Positions 53,793 to 64,000 of a stretch of 64,000 nucleotides of DNA are shown here, one piece after another. Made by a program: the position numbers and the translations under genes. The stretch comes from Verrucomicrobiota bacterium (GTDB lineage: Bacteria > Verrucomicrobiota > Verrucomicrobiia > Verrucomicrobiales > Verrucomicrobiaceae), in contig JANYCZ010000069.1 of assembly GCA_025360015.1 (NCBI GenBank), forward strand, positions 19,343 to 83,342. Reading direction: 5' to 3'. The notes beneath the pieces were generated by a model, which had not been told where the DNA came from, did no database searches, and saw nothing but the letters and a program-made list of their open reading frames with translations. Each line of letters opens with the position of its first letter. The stretch's first letter is position 1.

Positions 53793-56357
53793 TCAAACGC
53801 TCGCTGCAACCCCGGCCCGCGCCAGATACGCCGCCGTCCGGCTCGCGCCCGCCCGCGCCACCTCCCCCGGAGTTCCCTCCGCAGCGATCCGCCCGCCCTC
53901 CTCCCCCGCTCCCGGACCCATGTCAATGATCCAGTCGCTAGCTGCAGCCACTTGCATGTCATGCTCCACCACGATCACCGTGTTGCCCGCTTCCACCAGG
54001 CCATCCAGTTGCATCATCAGTTTCTCCACATCGGCAGGATGCAGCCCCGTGGTCGGCTCGTCCAAAATATACAGCGTGCTGCCACGGCTGATCCGTTGCA
54101 GCTCAGTCGCCAGCTTGATTCGCTGCGCCTCACCACCGGAAAGCTCCGTCGCGGGCTGGCCCAGCCGCAGGTATCCCAGCCCCACTTGCTGCAGCACATG
54201 CAGCGGCCTCACCAGCGCCGCCTCATCCCCGAAGAAATCCGCCGCAGCATCCACCGTCAGGCCGAGTACTTCGGCTATGTTCTTATCCCGATATTTCACC
54301 TCCAGCGTCTTCTCATTATAGCGCGCACCGTGGCACTCCGGGCACGGAGCATACACACTCGGCAGAAACAGCAGCTCCACGAACACAAAGCCTTCGCCCG
54401 CGCATTTCTCGCAGCGCCCTTTGGCCACGTTGAATGAAAACCGCCCCGCATCGTACCCTCGGCTGCGTGCAGACTTCGTCGCCGCAAACACCCGCCGCAC
54501 ATGGTCAAAAAGCCCCGTGTACGTGGCCAGATTCGAGCGCGGGGTACGCCCGATCGCCTTCTGATCCACCCGCACCAGCCGCTTGATCGACTCCATCCCG
54601 CTGGCGATCTCGCCTCCCTCCGTCACCACCACCTCCCTCTCCAGTTCATCCTCTTCGCTGTCCTCGTCCAATGCTCCAGCGTTACCCAGATGCTTCGACA
54701 CCAGCTCCACCAGCACCTGGCTCACCAGGCTCGACTTCCCAGAGCCAGACACCCCCGTCACCGTCGTAAACACCCCCAGCGGAAAGGCCGCATCCAGCTC
54801 CCGCAGATTGTTGCGCGTCACTCCCGTCAGTCGCAGCCACCCCTGCGGTTCGCGCGGTGTGCGGCGCATGGGGGTGCTATCACCAAAAAGATGCGGCCGA
54901 GTTTGCGAGGCCGCTACGTTCGCCAGCCCCGGCAGCGGCCCGCTGTAGAGAATCTCCCCGCCTTGTTCTCCTGCCGCCGGCCCCACATCCACAATCCAGT
55001 CCGCACGCCGGATGATGTCCACCTCGTGCTCCACCACAAACAGCGAATTGCCCGACGCGATCAGCTTTTCCAGGGTCGCCAGCAGCGCCTCCGTGTCAGC
55101 CGGGTGCAGTCCCGCGCTGGGTTCGTCCAGCACATACACCACCCCGAAAAGATTGGACCTCACCTGCGTCGCCAGTCGCAGACGTTGCAGCTCTCCCGGA
55201 GAAAGCGTCGGCGTACTCCGGTCCAGCGAGAGATAGCCCAGCCCCAGATCCAGCAGCACGTCCAGCCGCGCACTCAGGTCCTGGGCGATCCGCTGGATCA
55301 CCACCGCCTTCTCCGGATGCTGCGTCACTAGCTTCGCCCAGCCCGGCGCCTTCGCCTCCGCATACGGTTGGAAAAGTGTCGCCACCTGCTTCAGCGGCAG
55401 GTTCGACACCGCCGTGATATCCAGTCCCGCAAACGTCACCGCCAGAGCCTCCGCACGCAGCCGCCGCCCCTCGCACACTCCGCACTCACTCGCCACCATG
55501 TAGCGCGACACCCGCTTCTTCATCGAGGCACTCTCCGTCTTCGCAAACGTCTCAATCACATAGCGCTTCGCCCCCGTGAACGTCCCCATGTAGCTCGGCT
55601 CCACCTTCGCCTTGATCGCCCTTCGTATCTGCTCGCGGTCCCACCCCGCATACACCGGCACCACCGGCTGTTCATCCGTGAAAAGCAGCCAGTCCCGGTC
55701 CTTCTTCGGCAGTTCACGCCACGGCTTGTCGATGTCATACCCCAGCGTCGTCACAATATCCCGCAGGTTCTGCCCGTGCCACGCCGGCGGCCACGCAGCG
55801 ATGGCCCGTTCGCGGATGCTCAGCGAATCGTCCGGCACCATCGACCCCTCCGTCACGTCATACACCCGCCCCAGCCCATGGCAGCGCGGGCACGCCCCCT
55901 CCGGCGTGTTCGGCGAAAACGATTCCGCATACAGCAGCGCCTGCCCTTTTGGATATTCCCCCCCGCGTGAATAAAGCATCCGCAGCAGATTCGACAGCGT
56001 CGTCACACTCCCCACCGATGATCGTGCCGTCGCCGTCCCCCGCTGCTGTTGCAACGCCACTGCAGGAGGCAGCCCCTCGATCTCATCCACCTCCGGCACC
56101 CCCATCTGATGAAACAGCCTCCGCGCATACGGCGCCACCGATTCCAGGTACCGACGCTGCGCCTCCGCATAGAGCGTCCCAAACGCCAGCGATGACTTCC
56201 CCGAACCCGACACCCCCGTAAAAACCACCAGCGCATCCCGCGGGATCTCCACATCAATGTTCTTCAGGTTATGCTCCCGCGCCCCACGCACCCGCACAAA
56301 TCGATGCGCCTCCTCCCCGCTCCGAGGAACAGCTAAACTGGAAGACGTCTGGGACAT
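53793..56357 (-). CDS. Excinuclease ABC subunit A-like ATPase, UvrA2 type (854 aa)
   Basis: [145 protein letters not shown]. Confidence 0.9.
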
Positions 56358-56540
56358 TCGGAAAAAATCGGTTCGAGGGGGGGGGACGAATGGGGGCGCT
56401 ACGAGTGAACAATGGGAAACGCTGAATCAGCTCGGGCATTCCCAAGTGAGTCACACGCTCCACCTCCATCAATCGCATCTCGCCCGTCCCGTGGTCTGCC
56501 ACCCGAAGAATCGAGAGCACGCTTCCCCACCCGCGCCCCA

Positions 56541-57100
56541 GCGCAAGGTAGGGCGGTTTGTCCCCAAGCCGCCGCCCGAACGTCTCCAAGCCCCAGCCCA
56601 CGCCCAGCGCAAGGTAGGCCGCCTTGTCCCCAAGCCGCCGCCCGAACGTCCCCAAGCCCCACCCGCGCCCAGCGCAAGGTAGGGCGGCTTGTCCCCAAGC
56701 CGCCGTCGAACGTCCCCAAGCCCCGCCCGCGCCCCAGCGCAAGGTAGGGCGGCTTGTCCTCAAGCCGCCGCCCGAACGTCTCCAAGCCCCACCCACGCCC
56801 AGCGGAGGTAGGGCGGCTTGTCCCCAAGCCGCCGCCGAACGTCCCCAAGCCCCACCCACGCCCAGCGCAGGTAGGCGGCTTGTCCCCAAGCCGCCGCCGA
56901 ACGTCCCCCAAGCCGCCGCCGAACGTCCCCCAGGCCCCGCCCGCTCCCAGCGCCGGTAGGGCGACTTGTCCCCAAGCCGCCGCCGAACGTCCCCAGGCCC
57001 CGCCCGCGCCCCAGCGCAAGGTAGGGCGGCTTGTCCTCAAGCCGCCGTCGAGCGTCCCCAGGCCCCCCGTAGGCCGCCTTGTCCCCGCCCCAGCCACCGC
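56541..57100. repeat. ~65-bp tandem repeat array (about 8.5 copies), each containing a GGCGGCTTG-TCCC-CAAGCCGCC-type hairpin
   Basis: Unit starts (GCGCAAGGTAGG or variant) at 56541, 56606, 56671, 56736, 56801, 56864, 56949, 57014. Confidence 0.92.
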
Positions 57101-57603: not shown

Positions 57604-60600
57604 ATGGACAATCAGACGACACAATTAGCTGAGTTGACGAAAAGGCGAAAGAAATGGGTCGAGGCGAATCGCGAGAATGGATTTGAGGAAGGTATCACCA
57701 ATCTTTTGACCGAACTCTATCCTGATAACGCCCATTTCATTTATGAATTGCTCCAAAATGCGGAGGACACTCAAGCGGATGCTGTCAGATTCACTTTGTC
57801 CAGAAAAGACATTCGCTTTGAACACAATGGAGGACGTCTCTTCAACTTGAGCGATGTCGAATCGATTACCAGCATCGGTAATAGCACAAAGCGCAGCGAC
57901 CCCACCAATATCGGGAAATTCGGCGTGGGGTTCAAGGCTGTCTTCGCATATACCAACTCTCCCGAGATTCATTCAGGGACGTTTCAATTCAAAATCAATA
58001 ACCTAGTGGTTCCCGAGTCGTTGCCACGCAAAGCAACCGATGGTTCTACCGCGTTCCTGTTTCCATTCGATAATCCGAAAAAAGCTCAGTCAAGAGCGGT
58101 TGAAGAAATTGACCGCGGACTGCGAGCGCTTGCAGACAATACATTGCTCTTTCTCAACCACATACGGGAGATTGAATATCTGCTGCCAAACGCGGTGCTA
58201 GGGAAGCTAAAACGTATCGACATGGACGGCGAAGGAATCGGACAGCGCATCGAAATCCATGCCACTCAATCGGAACAGGACGAAGCTGTTTCGCATTGGC
58301 TACGTTACCGCAAAGAAGTTTCGATCACCGATGAAGCGGGTGAAATGAAGATATGTCAGGTGGCCATCGCCTTTCGTCTTCAAAAGCAGTTGTGCGATTC
58401 AGGGACGGGCCATCCCGAGGAAAAGAATGGAAAAAAAAAGCCAATAAAACCAAAGGCGTCATGGTGCATTGTTCCTTGTGAACCGGGTCAGGTTTCCATC
58501 TTCTTTCCGGCCGAAAAAGAGACATCTAATCTGAGATTCCATCTTCATGCACCGTTCGCCTCCACCGTTGCCCGTGATAGCGTTCGCGATTGCAATTCCA
58601 ACGAGGAACTGCGTGATGGATTGGCACAACTCACAATCGAAGCCTTGGCGGATATTCGCAATCGAGGGTTGCTCACAATGTCCTTCCTCGCAATCTTACC
58701 CAACGAGGACGACGGACTCTCGACGTTTTATGACCCAATTCGGGAGGCCATTGTAAAAGGGTTTCGAGAGGAAAATTTGTTGCCTACCAAGAGCGGATCG
58801 CATCTGAAAGCCGATGGCCTCTACAGGGGGCAGTCCGAAATCTCTTCAGTGATTGATGACGACGATCTTTCTTTGCTGACAGGATACGAGTCCCCTTTGT
58901 GGGCGGCAAATGCTCCGCAAAAGGGCATGCGTGAAGACAAGTTTCTCGACACCCTTCAAATCGATAAATGGGGATGGGATGCTCTGAAAGACGCAATACT
59001 AGAAACCGAGAGAAGCGGGGAAAAGAAGGACAAAATTGAAAAGTGGATCTCTGGGAAGCAGGACAATTGGCTAATGCGGTTCTACGCATTAATGGAATCA
59101 TGCCATGCAGAAACAGAAGGCTACGTCGGCAAGCCGCCATTGGCATCTGCTTGGAGTAGCCTAGCAAGCGTTCGAGTAACCGACAGCAAAGGATCGGATG
59201 AGCATGTCACACCACGCAGCGCCTTTTTCCCGAAGCAGGTTCTCACAAAAGGTAGCAGGCCATATGATGTGCCGGCAAAAATTCGCCTCGTAAAGCGTGA
59301 GGTATACGAAAAAGGCCGTCTTGGGGAGAATACCAAAAAGGCCGCTCGTGATTTTCTTGAGCGGGTGGGGGTGCGAGAGTATGATGAACGTGCTGAGATT
59401 GAGCGGAGGTTGGAATGGTATTCGAAATCTGGCAAGAAAACCATCACAGACAGTCATTATCGTGATATTCGGGCATTTATCTCTTTCCTGAAGACCCATC
59501 CTCTTGAAGCAAATCTGTTCAAGGAAACAGAATTTCTGGTGGCCGCAGACGAAACACAGGAACAATTATACTGGTCTAAACCGAGGGAAATATTTCTTGA
59601 TGCTCCTTATGAAACAACAGGTTTAGGTGAATTAACGGCAATACATGGCAAGAAAGTGCTATGGATAAAATATTGCGAACGTCTTGGTAATAACTTGAAG
59701 AGCGAAGACTTCATCTGCTTTTTGAAAGCAGTTGGTGCTTTTCATGAGCTGGCAGTGAACGAGGTTGGCTGTTGGCGTAATGACAAAATCAATACTTGGG
59801 AGGGGCGCTCAACATATACGGGAGTAAATGTCGATTGGACCATAAAAGATTTAGAAGACTACCTTTCAGAGCAACATCAACTCGCCAGTCGCTTGATTTG
59901 GATGGCTATTCTCCAGGCAGACAAAAAAATTGCTACCGCCAAGTATCGACCCAATCAACAGCACAGCCTTCAAATTGCCGGATCACAACTTGTCCAACAT
60001 TTGAAAGCCTGCGCTTGGATTCCAGATCAAAGCGGGACTTTTCAAAGACCTCAGGATATGACTCGGGATATGCTTCCCAAGGAGTTTCCATATGACGATC
60101 GCAACGGACTGCTGACGGCCATAGGTTTTGGAGAGAAAGCGAAAGAAACCAGTGCAGAATTTAAGGCGCGGGACGCAGATGCTAAGAAATTGGGCTTCGA
60201 ATCAGCAACAGAAATCGAAGAAGCACTCGCTTTGTTAAGAGCCAAGAAGGAAGGACGCATCAGGGAAGTTTTAAAGGAAAACTTGGAACAACCGAATGAG
60301 GGAGCCTTCGTTGGTCCAACAAATTCGTCAACTAAAGACGCAGAAGAGAGCGGTAATGGGCCGATGGGTAATCCTGTTGAGGATAGTGGATTGCAAACGG
60401 CAGCTTTTGGAACAAGTCCGTCAAGCACGCCTCAAGATGTGGAATCAACGATGCTCCCAGTCATGCGAAGGATCAACGCCCGCGTCAGAGAAACGGGGAC
60501 GTTTTCATCGCCGACGGCGGCGAATGGGGAACAGCGCGAACAATTTGAGGATGACGACGTTTACACACCCGCACCAGTGGATTATTCGAAAAGAATCGCG

Positions 60601-62529
60601 CGAGCCGAGGAACGTAACGCGACTGAAATTGCAAGGATGGAACGCGAGCAGGAATTGCTTAATCTTGCAATTGCACTGCCGCGCTACAGCTACGGCTGGT
60701 TCCTTGCGCTGTTGGAATTGGAATGCCTGGCGAGCAGCGAGAAGAACGTTAGTGGCAAGTCCATCTCAATCAGCTTCGGCAGGATCGAGAAGGAGGCTAT
60801 ATCATCGAAGACCATCATCTTGAGGGAGCCGAGCCGCTTTATTCCGCAGTCAGTCGAAGAATTGTCCGGTGTGCGAATTGACCTTCAGTTCGACGACGGA
60901 CGCACAGGGAAGCTTCATGTGGAGTCATTTACAGCGAAGGAATTCTCGCTGCTCGGTAAACTGAAGTCAGTTGATGAGTTAAAGGGAGTAGATTTTGGCA
61001 AGGTCGTGGAGGCGCGCATTGATGTTCAGAATCCATCCTTCCTATTACAGGAACTGCTGAATCGTTTCAGAGAATTGGGTTTCGAGGAGAAATTCGACAT
61101 GAAGGATAACCTGACGCCAGATATCGAATTTGTTTTCGGTCCGCCCGGAACCGGCAAGACGACTCATCTCGCGGAGAATGTGTTGATGCCATTGATGCGA
61201 AGAGCAGAAAAGTCCAGGGTGCTCGTCCTTACTCCGACGAACAAGGCGGCGGATGTGCTCACCACCCGCATCATGGACAAAATGGGCTCGGATAAGTCTT
61301 TCCAGAATTGGCTGGTTCGCTTCGGGACCTCTGCGGACGAGAGGATCGAAAAAGAGGGGGTGTGGAGGGACCGTGCGTTTGAGATCGGCGCGTTAGATCG
61401 TTCCGTGACGATCAGCACTATTGCTCGCTTCGCCTACGACGGATTTGCTACAGAACATGGCAAACTGCGCGAGATGGAGTGGGATACCATTGTGTTCGAC
61501 GAGGCGTCGATGATTCCACTCGTCAACATTATCTATCCACTCTACCAACGAAAGCCTCGAAAGTTTATCGTAGCTGGAGACCCTTTTCAGATCGAACCGA
61601 TTGTTTCTGTGGATCAATGGAAAGATGAAAATATCTATACGCTGGTCGGACTCAACAAGTCGGGAGCATTTGTTCATCCCAGCACTGAGCCGCATGACTA
61701 CCCTGTGACGAGCCTGGAGACTCAATACCGAAGTCTCCCAGCCATTGGCGAAGTCTTTAGCCGCTTCACATACAACGGAATCCTGAAACACCATCGAAGG
61801 GATGGCACGCAGCGTCCGCTGCGAATCGACGGCCTCGATCTTAAACCCCTCAACCTCATCAAGTTCCCTGTCAGCAAATATGAGAGTATCTACAGGGCAA
61901 AACGCCTGAAGAGTGGGACCCCCTACCAGACTTATTCGGCTCTTTTCACGTTCGAGCTTGTTAATTGGCTGGCGGGTCAGATTCAGACAAATCACTTGGG
62001 AGAACCACCGTTTCGTATCGGCATCATCGCACCATACCGCGCTCAAGCGAATCTATTGAGCAAACTGAACGACTCGCGGATATCCACTCCCGGTGGAGTG
62101 GAGATACAGGTCGGAACGATTCACGGCTTCCAAGGGGACGAGTGCGACATCATATTTGCCGTTTTCAACCCTCCGCCGACCATTTCCGCAAGTCCCCAGA
62201 TGTTTCTCAATAAGCAGAACATCCTCAATGTCGCTATCAGCCGCGCAAGGGACTACCTTTTCATTGTAATGCCCGACGATCAGACAGAAGGTTTCGAGAA
62301 TCTTCGCAAGGTGGCCAGAATAGAAAGTCTTGTGATAGACGGTGGTGCGTTCAGCGAATATGAGTCCCATGCAGTTGAGGAAGTGATTCTGGGGAACACA
62401 CATTATCTTGAGGATAATACGTTCTCGACCGGACATCAAATGGTGAACGTCTACCGCAAGCCTGAGCGTTACTATGAGGTTCGCAGTGACGATTCTGCGA
62501 TCGATGTCCAGATTCACGAAAAGGGATGA
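57604..62529 (+). CDS. 1641-aa fusion: N-terminal sacsin-like GHKL/HATPase domain and C-terminal UPF1/COG1112-like SF1 helicase
   Basis: N-box FIYELLQNAEDTQADAVRF, FEHNGGRLFNLSDVESI, IGKFGVGFKAVFAYT; helicase FVFGPPGTGKTTHLAE, TIVFDEASMIPL, VAGDPFQIEPIV, LETQYRSLPAIGEVFS, GTIHGFQGDECDIIFAVF, LNVAISRARDYLFIV. Confidence 0.92.
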   Translation: MDNQTTQLAELTKRRKKWVEANRENGFEEGITNLLTELYPDNAHFIYELLQNAEDTQADAVRFTLSRKDIRFEHNGGRLFNLSDVESITSIGNSTKRSDPTNIGKFGVGFKAVFAYTNSPEIHSGTFQFKINNLVVPESLPRKATDGSTAFLFPFDNPKKAQSRAVEEIDRGLRALADNTLLFLNHIREIEYLLPNAVLGKLKRIDMDGEGIGQRIEIHATQSEQDEAVSHWLRYRKEVSITDEAGEMKICQVAIAFRLQKQLCDSGTGHPEEKNGKKKPIKPKASWCIVPCEPGQVSIFFPAEKETSNLRFHLHAPFASTVARDSVRDCNSNEELRDGLAQLTIEALADIRNRGLLTMSFLAILPNEDDGLSTFYDPIREAIVKGFREENLLPTKSGSHLKADGLYRGQSEISSVIDDDDLSLLTGYESPLWAANAPQKGMREDKFLDTLQIDKWGWDALKDAILETERSGEKKDKIEKWISGKQDNWLMRFYALMESCHAETEGYVGKPPLASAWSSLASVRVTDSKGSDEHVTPRSAFFPKQVLTKGSRPYDVPAKIRLVKREVYEKGRLGENTKKAARDFLERVGVREYDERAEIERRLEWYSKSGKKTITDSHYRDIRAFISFLKTHPLEANLFKETEFLVAADETQEQLYWSKPREIFLDAPYETTGLGELTAIHGKKVLWIKYCERLGNNLKSEDFICFLKAVGAFHELAVNEVGCWRNDKINTWEGRSTYTGVNVDWTIKDLEDYLSEQHQLASRLIWMAILQADKKIATAKYRPNQQHSLQIAGSQLVQHLKACAWIPDQSGTFQRPQDMTRDMLPKEFPYDDRNGLLTAIGFGEKAKETSAEFKARDADAKKLGFESATEIEEALALLRAKKEGRIREVLKENLEQPNEGAFVGPTNSSTKDAEESGNGPMGNPVEDSGLQTAAFGTSPSSTPQDVESTMLPVMRRINARVRETGTFSSPTAANGEQREQFEDDDVYTPAPVDYSKRIARAEERNATEIARMEREQELLNLAIALPRYSYGWFLALLELECLASSEKNVSGKSISISFGRIEKEAISSKTIILREPSRFIPQSVEELSGVRIDLQFDDGRTGKLHVESFTAKEFSLLGKLKSVDELKGVDFGKVVEARIDVQNPSFLLQELLNRFRELGFEEKFDMKDNLTPDIEFVFGPPGTGKTTHLAENVLMPLMRRAEKSRVLVLTPTNKAADVLTTRIMDKMGSDKSFQNWLVRFGTSADERIEKEGVWRDRAFEIGALDRSVTISTIARFAYDGFATEHGKLREMEWDTIVFDEASMIPLVNIIYPLYQRKPRKFIVAGDPFQIEPIVSVDQWKDENIYTLVGLNKSGAFVHPSTEPHDYPVTSLETQYRSLPAIGEVFSRFTYNGILKHHRRDGTQRPLRIDGLDLKPLNLIKFPVSKYESIYRAKRLKSGTPYQTYSALFTFELVNWLAGQIQTNHLGEPPFRIGIIAPYRAQANLLSKLNDSRISTPGGVEIQVGTIHGFQGDECDIIFAVFNPPPTISASPQMFLNKQNILNVAISRARDYLFIVMPDDQTEGFENLRKVARIESLVIDGGAFSEYESHAVEEVILGNTHYLEDNTFSTGHQMVNVYRKPERYYEVRSDDSAIDVQIHEKG

Positions 62530-63795: not shown

Positions 63796-63869
63796 CATGG
63801 AAGCGTCGCCAATCGCCCCGACATCCGTGCAATCCGTGGTTCACCTCAGACCTCCTCCACATCCGCATC

Positions 63870-64000
63870 CAGCATCCAGCATCCAGCATCCAGCATCCAG
63901 CATCCAGCATCCAGCATCCAGCATCCAGCATCCAGCATCCAGCATCCAGCATCCAGCATCCAGCATCCAGCATCCAGCATCCAGCATCCAGCATCCAGCA
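63870..64000. repeat. Heptanucleotide microsatellite (CAGCATC)n, about 18.7 copies to window end
   Basis: Uninterrupted CAGCATCCAGCATC...; continues past the window edge. Confidence 0.97.

Follow-up and report, generated by a model that had tools for sequence, protein, structure and literature searches.

A sacsin-type GHKL ATPase fused to a UPF1-type SF1 helicase in a Verrucomicrobiaceae genome: a very likely natural chimera and probable accessory anti-phage gene

Introduction

Helicases are common in defence systems, where their role as sensor, mover or killer is usually unclear. Tiamat and Mokosh, the two systems whose profiles lie closest to the gene described here, both reportedly go back to Millman et al. 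2022. Tiamat has been called poorly understood, and Mokosh II is a helicase-nuclease (PMC10740426). GHKL ATPases have been linked to restriction and immunity as well: MORC and paraMORC GHKL proteins were described in 2008 in restriction-modification (R-M) operons that also encode nucleases and helicases of type III-like or SWI2/SNF2 kind, with DNA looping as the proposed activity (PMC2292703), and VcSduA, a GHKL-nuclease Shedu protein, protects against phages, its GHKL domain being proposed by the authors to control the nuclease (PMC12137116). Here we analysed a window of 64,000 nucleotides (the whole stretch of DNA under study, from contig JANYCZ010000069.1 of the Verrucomicrobiaceae assembly GCA_025360015.1), in which an initial annotation made from the letters alone had marked one large gene as a candidate single-gene anti-phage defence.

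Results

Domain anatomy of the GHKL-SF1 protein

The window gene (57604-62529, plus strand) is a single intact ORF of 1641 aa with an ATG start and zero internal stops, and the source genome holds one copy only (100% match, G000:C76:76946-81868). Its features, in window coordinates, are as follows.

57604..62529, plus strand: complete coding sequence of the GHKL-SF1 chimera, 1641 aa (ORF, Pfam, PADLOC, source-genome match)
57604..60288, plus strand: N-half module, residues 1 to ~895, GHKL ATPase and Hsp90/sacsin-like middle, as in the proteins that pair with DrmD-like helicases (relatives, alignment, tree, fold matches)
57694..57981, plus strand: SACS/GHKL nucleotide-binding core, residues 31-126 (Pfam, alignment)
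57694..57981, plus strand: GHKL core motifs, N-box E48/N52/D55, G1-like HNG 74-76, G2 GKFGVGF 104-110
60289..60453, plus strand: weakly conserved linker with the putative chimera breakpoint, residues ~896-950 (identity profile)
60454..61110, plus strand: predicted helicase stalk and 1B-like barrel, residues ~951-1169 (alignment, fold matches; low-confidence model)
61111..62526, plus strand: UPF1/COG1112-type SF1 helicase core and conserved tail, residues ~1170-1641 (Pfam, PADLOC, PDB, alignment)
61111..62526, plus strand: helicase core motifs GPPGTGKT, DEAS, GDPFQI, QYRS, HGFQGDE, ISRAR

The GHKL core was recognised by the Pfam family SACS (residues 31-126, E 2.4e-18), the only GHKL family in Pfam that the protein matches, and by the NCBIfam sacsin domain (E 9e-26), the helicase core by Pfam AAA_11/AAA_12 (residues 1174-1555, E 3.5e-22) with concordant NCBIfam matches. 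Sequence matches in the PDB were sacsin SR1 for the N-terminus and UPF1, SEN1 and DNA2 for the C-terminus. Pfam and NCBIfam thus agree with the initial reading of a GHKL module in the N-half and a UPF1-type SF1 helicase in the C-half of one frame, and the motifs quoted for it are all there and conserved among relatives. The N and G2 boxes of the GHKL half and the helicase motifs are intact: residues E48, N52, D55, G104, F106, G107 and G109 are invariant in an alignment of 46 relatives, and the SF1 motifs GPPGTGKT, DE(A/S)S, GDP-QI, QYR, HGFQGDE and ISRA are kept in all or nearly all of 12 fusions. In place of the classical DxGxG, the G1 box has H-N-G, whose H74 is the same throughout the 46 relatives, and this makes the ATPase turnover of the protein uncertain.

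The structure model of the N-half (pLDDT 86.8, 46-row alignment) had its best fold matches in HtpG, TRAP1, sacsin SR1 and MutL/PMS1-type N-domains, and residues up to ~880 are therefore read as a GHKL ATPase followed by an Hsp90-like middle. The C-half model is of low confidence (pLDDT 53.8, 9-row alignment); by fold it aligns with UPF1, Dna2 and Sen1 across ~650-690 columns, which supports the prediction that residues 951-1169 form a helicase stalk and 1B barrel rather than a concealed nuclease. By sequence, the Dna2 match falls in the helicase region of Dna2. The middle of ~700 aa, which had been left unassigned, is mostly GHKL/Hsp90-like module to ~880, then linker, then predicted helicase stalk/1B. 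A nuclease within this middle was rejected, since neither Pfam nor PADLOC nor PHROG gave a nuclease match in it and the fold searches gave Hsp90/sacsin/MutL for the N-half and UPF1/Dna2/Sen1 helicase cores for the C-half. As had been noted from the sequence initially, no nuclease motif was recognised in the protein.

Short GHKL proteins paired with DrmD-like helicases

A search for relatives in 85,488 species genomes yielded 68 loci. Most of them match residues 1 to ~900 of the window protein only and encode proteins of ~1050-1100 aa, whose C-termini past ~880 vary: mostly an unnamed CxxC...CxxC zinc/treble-clef domain, in two cases HNH and in one NOV_C (DUF3883). A helicase gene lies directly upstream in 54 of the 60 short loci that have at least 1.5 kb of upstream sequence, mostly with an overlap of ~4 bp with the GHKL gene. 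This helicase is of the SNF2 type and typically ~1000-1200 aa long; one of the two scanned with Pfam carries an N-terminal Swt1-like HEPN domain (HEPN_Swt1). It matches the PADLOC DrmD profile nearly end to end (E about 1e-121) and scores 309 bits against the NCBI DrmD model, below the cutoff of 610, and is therefore named DrmD-like here and not DrmD. The two genes, one for a DrmD-like SNF2 helicase and one for a sacsin-type GHKL protein of ~1050 aa, make up an operon found in many phyla (L006, L025, L030 from Cupriavidus laharis, L046 from Arthrobacter, and ~50 other loci), which seemingly has no system name of its own in the libraries or, with incomplete coverage, the literature searched.

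Several members of this group depart from the common pattern. Phycicoccus elongatus carries two tandem helicase-GHKL pairs ~9 kb apart, equal in lengths and match scores (L054:6337-22208). A more distant locus from the same phylum as the window (L095:4295-10659) encodes a GHKL protein with a GmrSD_N + DUF7834 C-terminus followed by a second GmrSD gene, possibly a GHKL-controlled type IV restriction system. The last ~70 residues of the GHKL proteins of L059 and L062 match the GreA/GreB C-terminal domain (PF01272; L059 E 7e-8), hinting that this branch may have a link to RNA polymerase.

In a matched comparison at 1e-25, the 101 neighbour proteins of 18 short loci hit 55 PADLOC families, BREX, Pbe and type IV restriction among them, against 21 families for 101 control proteins at least 50 kb away on the same contigs; as these are counts of families and not of proteins, the excess is suggestive only. 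Clustering of homologues with defence genes, a check proposed in the initial annotation, is suggested in this way for the short loci; the window copy has no defence neighbour.

GHKL-SF1 fusions

The second kind of relative consists of GHKL-SF1 fusions of ~1570-1730 aa. Five of them (L073, L074, L102, L103, L104) stand immediately downstream of type III Mod and Res genes, and in L104 the fusion gene overlaps Res by 4 bp; L103 is near-identical to L102 and was counted without a separate scan, and the Res match of L102 is weak (E 4e-11). Others are solitary or lie at contig edges. A further protein of 2307 aa (L106:8227-15150) combines a TmtA-type (Tiamat) protein with a related Mokosh-type helicase at its C-terminus.

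Origin of the two halves

Compared with the short proteins L006, L025 and L034, the window protein shows ~50% identity to residue ~895 and none thereafter; compared with the fusions L003 and L004, identity is ~25-30% to ~950 and ~75% beyond. Over residues ~950-1641, identity to the helicase half of other GHKL-SF1 fusions is 72-77%, whereas the N-halves of those fusions are only ~30% identical to that of the window protein. In the N-half tree, the window protein lies deep in the short clade, separated by several starred branches, and the other 11 fusions form one clade. Constraining all fusions to a single N-half clade was rejected (delta lnL 192, AU p=6e-5), bearing in mind that this was a quick tree with some long branches and that the grouping was tested after being seen. 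The C-half tree places the window protein with L003 (Lewinellaceae), L004 (Methylobacter) and L005 (Acidobacteriota) with 100/100 support. Faster evolution of the N-half does not explain this pattern, because N/C identities between other fusions run in parallel (72/87, 87/91, 47/55, 39/50); the pairs that include the window protein are outliers (30/75, 30/77).

Judged from these alignments and trees, the window protein is almost certainly a natural chimera with halves from different protein lineages, and the different origins of the halves were missed in the initial annotation. The simplest account would be a recombination in the linker (~895-955) to which the DrmD-like-paired family contributed the GHKL module and the fusion family the helicase module. 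This type of chimera was found in one genome only, and conservation is therefore silent on its function.

Distribution and genomic setting

Relatives of the window protein are sparse. One of 68 other genomes of the family has one, limited to the N-half at 27-33% identity, and among 390 genomes of the phylum the helicase half occurs in two further genomes, one of them with a full fusion (L093). In three other phyla, represented by 398, 399 and 297 genomes, it is carried by 4, 1 and 1 of them, respectively (centre genomes counted). Fusion proteins are also encoded on two plasmids and three contigs classed as viral. The spread is that of an accessory, rare, mobile gene. Nothing that would have refuted the initial annotation was found: the gene is not core (1/68), not syntenic, and atypical in GC.

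The G+C content of the gene is 49.1%, compared with 61.2 +/- 1.8% (minimum 57.5%) in same-length windows on its left, and its GC3 is 53% compared with 69-89% in four neighbours. Both halves look foreign (47.5% and 51.3%). The AT-richness first noted by eye is therefore real, and the gene has the look of a horizontal acquisition. Long antisense ORFs are indeed missing, as a by-product of the lower GC and not as an independent sign.

The gene is solitary, as initially described: the nearest upstream gene, of the UvrA family, is 1.2 kb off on the opposite strand, and the 1.47 kb between the gene and the downstream contig end hold no convincing gene. Named genes farther left encode a ligase-associated DEXH helicase and PaoA-type iron-sulfur and FAD oxidoreductase subunits; with these and UvrA as its named neighbours, the gene lies outside any visible defence island. 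Searches beside it for remnants of Mod, Res, DrmD or a treble-clef domain gave nothing convincing (best E 0.07). The UvrA-family gene itself (53793-56357) has counterparts in only one other of 46 same-genus genomes (E<=1e-250; two copies there, 79% identical) and probably represents an accessory gene of the UvrA2-like kind instead of core uvrA.

The repeats on either side exist as described, a C-rich 65-bp array (56525-57066) and a 207-bp repeat, and are not special boundaries. The half-unit of the array recurs at ~38 other sites on many contigs of the source genome and fragments of the 207-bp unit at ~14 other places, so that these dispersed repeats were ruled out as mobile-element ends. A tract of 21 TCCAGCA units (63856-64000) stands right at the contig end and probably broke the assembly.

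Comparison with described systems

The PADLOC search proposed in the initial annotation gave as best matches TmtA (Tiamat) at residues 30-838 (E 3e-52), MkoA (Mokosh) at 1287-1555 (E 2e-38) and MkoC (E 1e-23). Like TmtA, the window protein is a single large protein, and its N-half matches positions 63-872 of the 1486-position TmtA profile; the second half of the profile is unmatched, the window protein having an SF1 helicase there that is matched by no TmtA model among the matches shown. It shares with Mokosh the UPF1/COG1112-type SF1 helicase, with MkoA/MkoC matches at 1280-1555, but has a GHKL module at the N-terminus and no PLD or NERD nuclease match. No PLD-family nuclease was found in the protein (Pfam, PADLOC), and neither such a nuclease nor an MkoB-like protein is encoded beside it, the contig ending 1.47 kb downstream. 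Nor are there DISARM drmABC core genes beside the gene. Membership in DISARM, Mokosh and Tiamat was rejected on the drmABC genes, the PLD nuclease and TmtA length, respectively; the protein is kin to the Tiamat (TmtA) and Mokosh helicase profiles and falls, by its sequence, within the definition of neither.

The DrmD-like + GHKL operons share the GHKL domain and middle, with up to 43-53% identity over ~870 residues in the closest members, but have their helicase in trans, as an SNF2 protein encoded directly upstream, and a zinc/treble-clef, HNH or NOV_C C-terminus. The type III R-M-associated fusions have the same domain order, with both halves in one chain as in the window protein, and a C-half 38-54% identical (up to 77% in other fusions), but their N-half is only ~28-31% identical and they stand in an operon with Mod and Res, neither of which adjoins the window gene. 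MORC/paraMORC proteins likewise associate a GHKL ATPase with helicases (PMC2292703); the window protein differs in its sacsin-type GHKL (SACS Pfam family) and in having an SF1 helicase fused to it. With VcSduA it shares a GHKL N-domain as proposed gate of a C-terminal effector, which in VcSduA is a PD-(D/E)xK nuclease (DUF4263) (PMC12137116). The initial suggestion of a separate architecture is only partly borne out, as the window protein is not the sole GHKL-SF1 fusion and five of the others stand in type III R-M operons. We found no literature account of a GHKL-SF1 fusion or a DrmD-like + GHKL pair, which, given incomplete coverage, is weak evidence of novelty.

Discussion

A defence function of the window protein is quite likely. 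The proposed link to defence gained from its best PADLOC matches, TmtA/Tiamat and MkoA/Mokosh, and from relatives in restriction operons. We conclude that the gene is probably an accessory, single-gene anti-phage system, a natural chimera coupling a GHKL clamp to a cis SF1 translocase. The GHKL half would dimerise on ATP to act as the clamp, and its middle domain may sense foreign nucleic acid or a phage complex. Once driven shut by ATP, the clamp would license the fused SF1 translocase, which could unwind or strip phage replication or transcription intermediates, directly or by passing them to host nucleases. Where the closest relatives have an SNF2 motor in trans and a zinc/HNH-like domain at the C-terminus, the window protein would have its cis SF1 motor instead. 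Because no nuclease was recognised, the helicase is the natural candidate for the effector, although that it acts as one directly is a possibility we would rate as somewhat doubtful. More tentatively still, GHKL clamps might be a general plug-in immune core that swaps motor (trans SNF2, cis SF1) and effector (HNH-like, NOV_C, GmrSD, helicase) between distinct systems, with the window helicase itself the effector and hence nuclease-free restriction by one polypeptide.

Other explanations were weighed against this one. The position of five fusions downstream of type III Mod-Res genes, and the MORC/paraMORC GHKL proteins of R-M operons with their proposed DNA looping beside helicases (PMC2292703), would suit a restriction-associated accessory of DNA processing or repair that is not an effector and remodels DNA after breaks by resident restriction systems or mobile elements. 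We consider this unlikely for the window copy, which has no R-M partner, and immunity is the better fit to the patchy spread and the matches to defence profiles. A role in protein or RNP quality control, as a sacsin/Hsp90-like chaperone with a helicase, would agree with the HtpG, TRAP1, sacsin SR1 and MutL/PMS1-type folds of the N-half; it is made very improbable by close relatives that are paired with SNF2 helicases and bear HNH, NOV_C or GmrSD-type restriction domains, and by a gene that is not core in any sampled lineage. Since the chimera is known from one draft genome only, an assembly artefact joining two genes also comes to mind, but there is very little room for misassembly, because the ORF is single and in frame, the halves are similar in their foreign GC (47.5 and 51.3%) and the junction is free of repeats, with the genome's own dispersed repeats on both flanks. 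Least probable is a decayed remnant without present function, as might be imagined for a solitary gene without partners, given an intact frame of 1641 codons and GHKL and SF1 motifs conserved with relatives.

The window gene represents a natural domain swap: in ~50 lineages the GHKL core is accompanied by a separate SNF2 helicase and ends in a zinc/HNH-like tail, and in one it is fused to a UPF1-type helicase. Comparing both arrangements would be a direct test of the helicase as sensor, motor or effector, and for experiments the DrmD-like + GHKL operon, with at least 54 loci in many phyla, offers a stronger target than the window gene alone. The chimera suggests that bacterial immune proteins are assembled from exchangeable sensor and motor parts.
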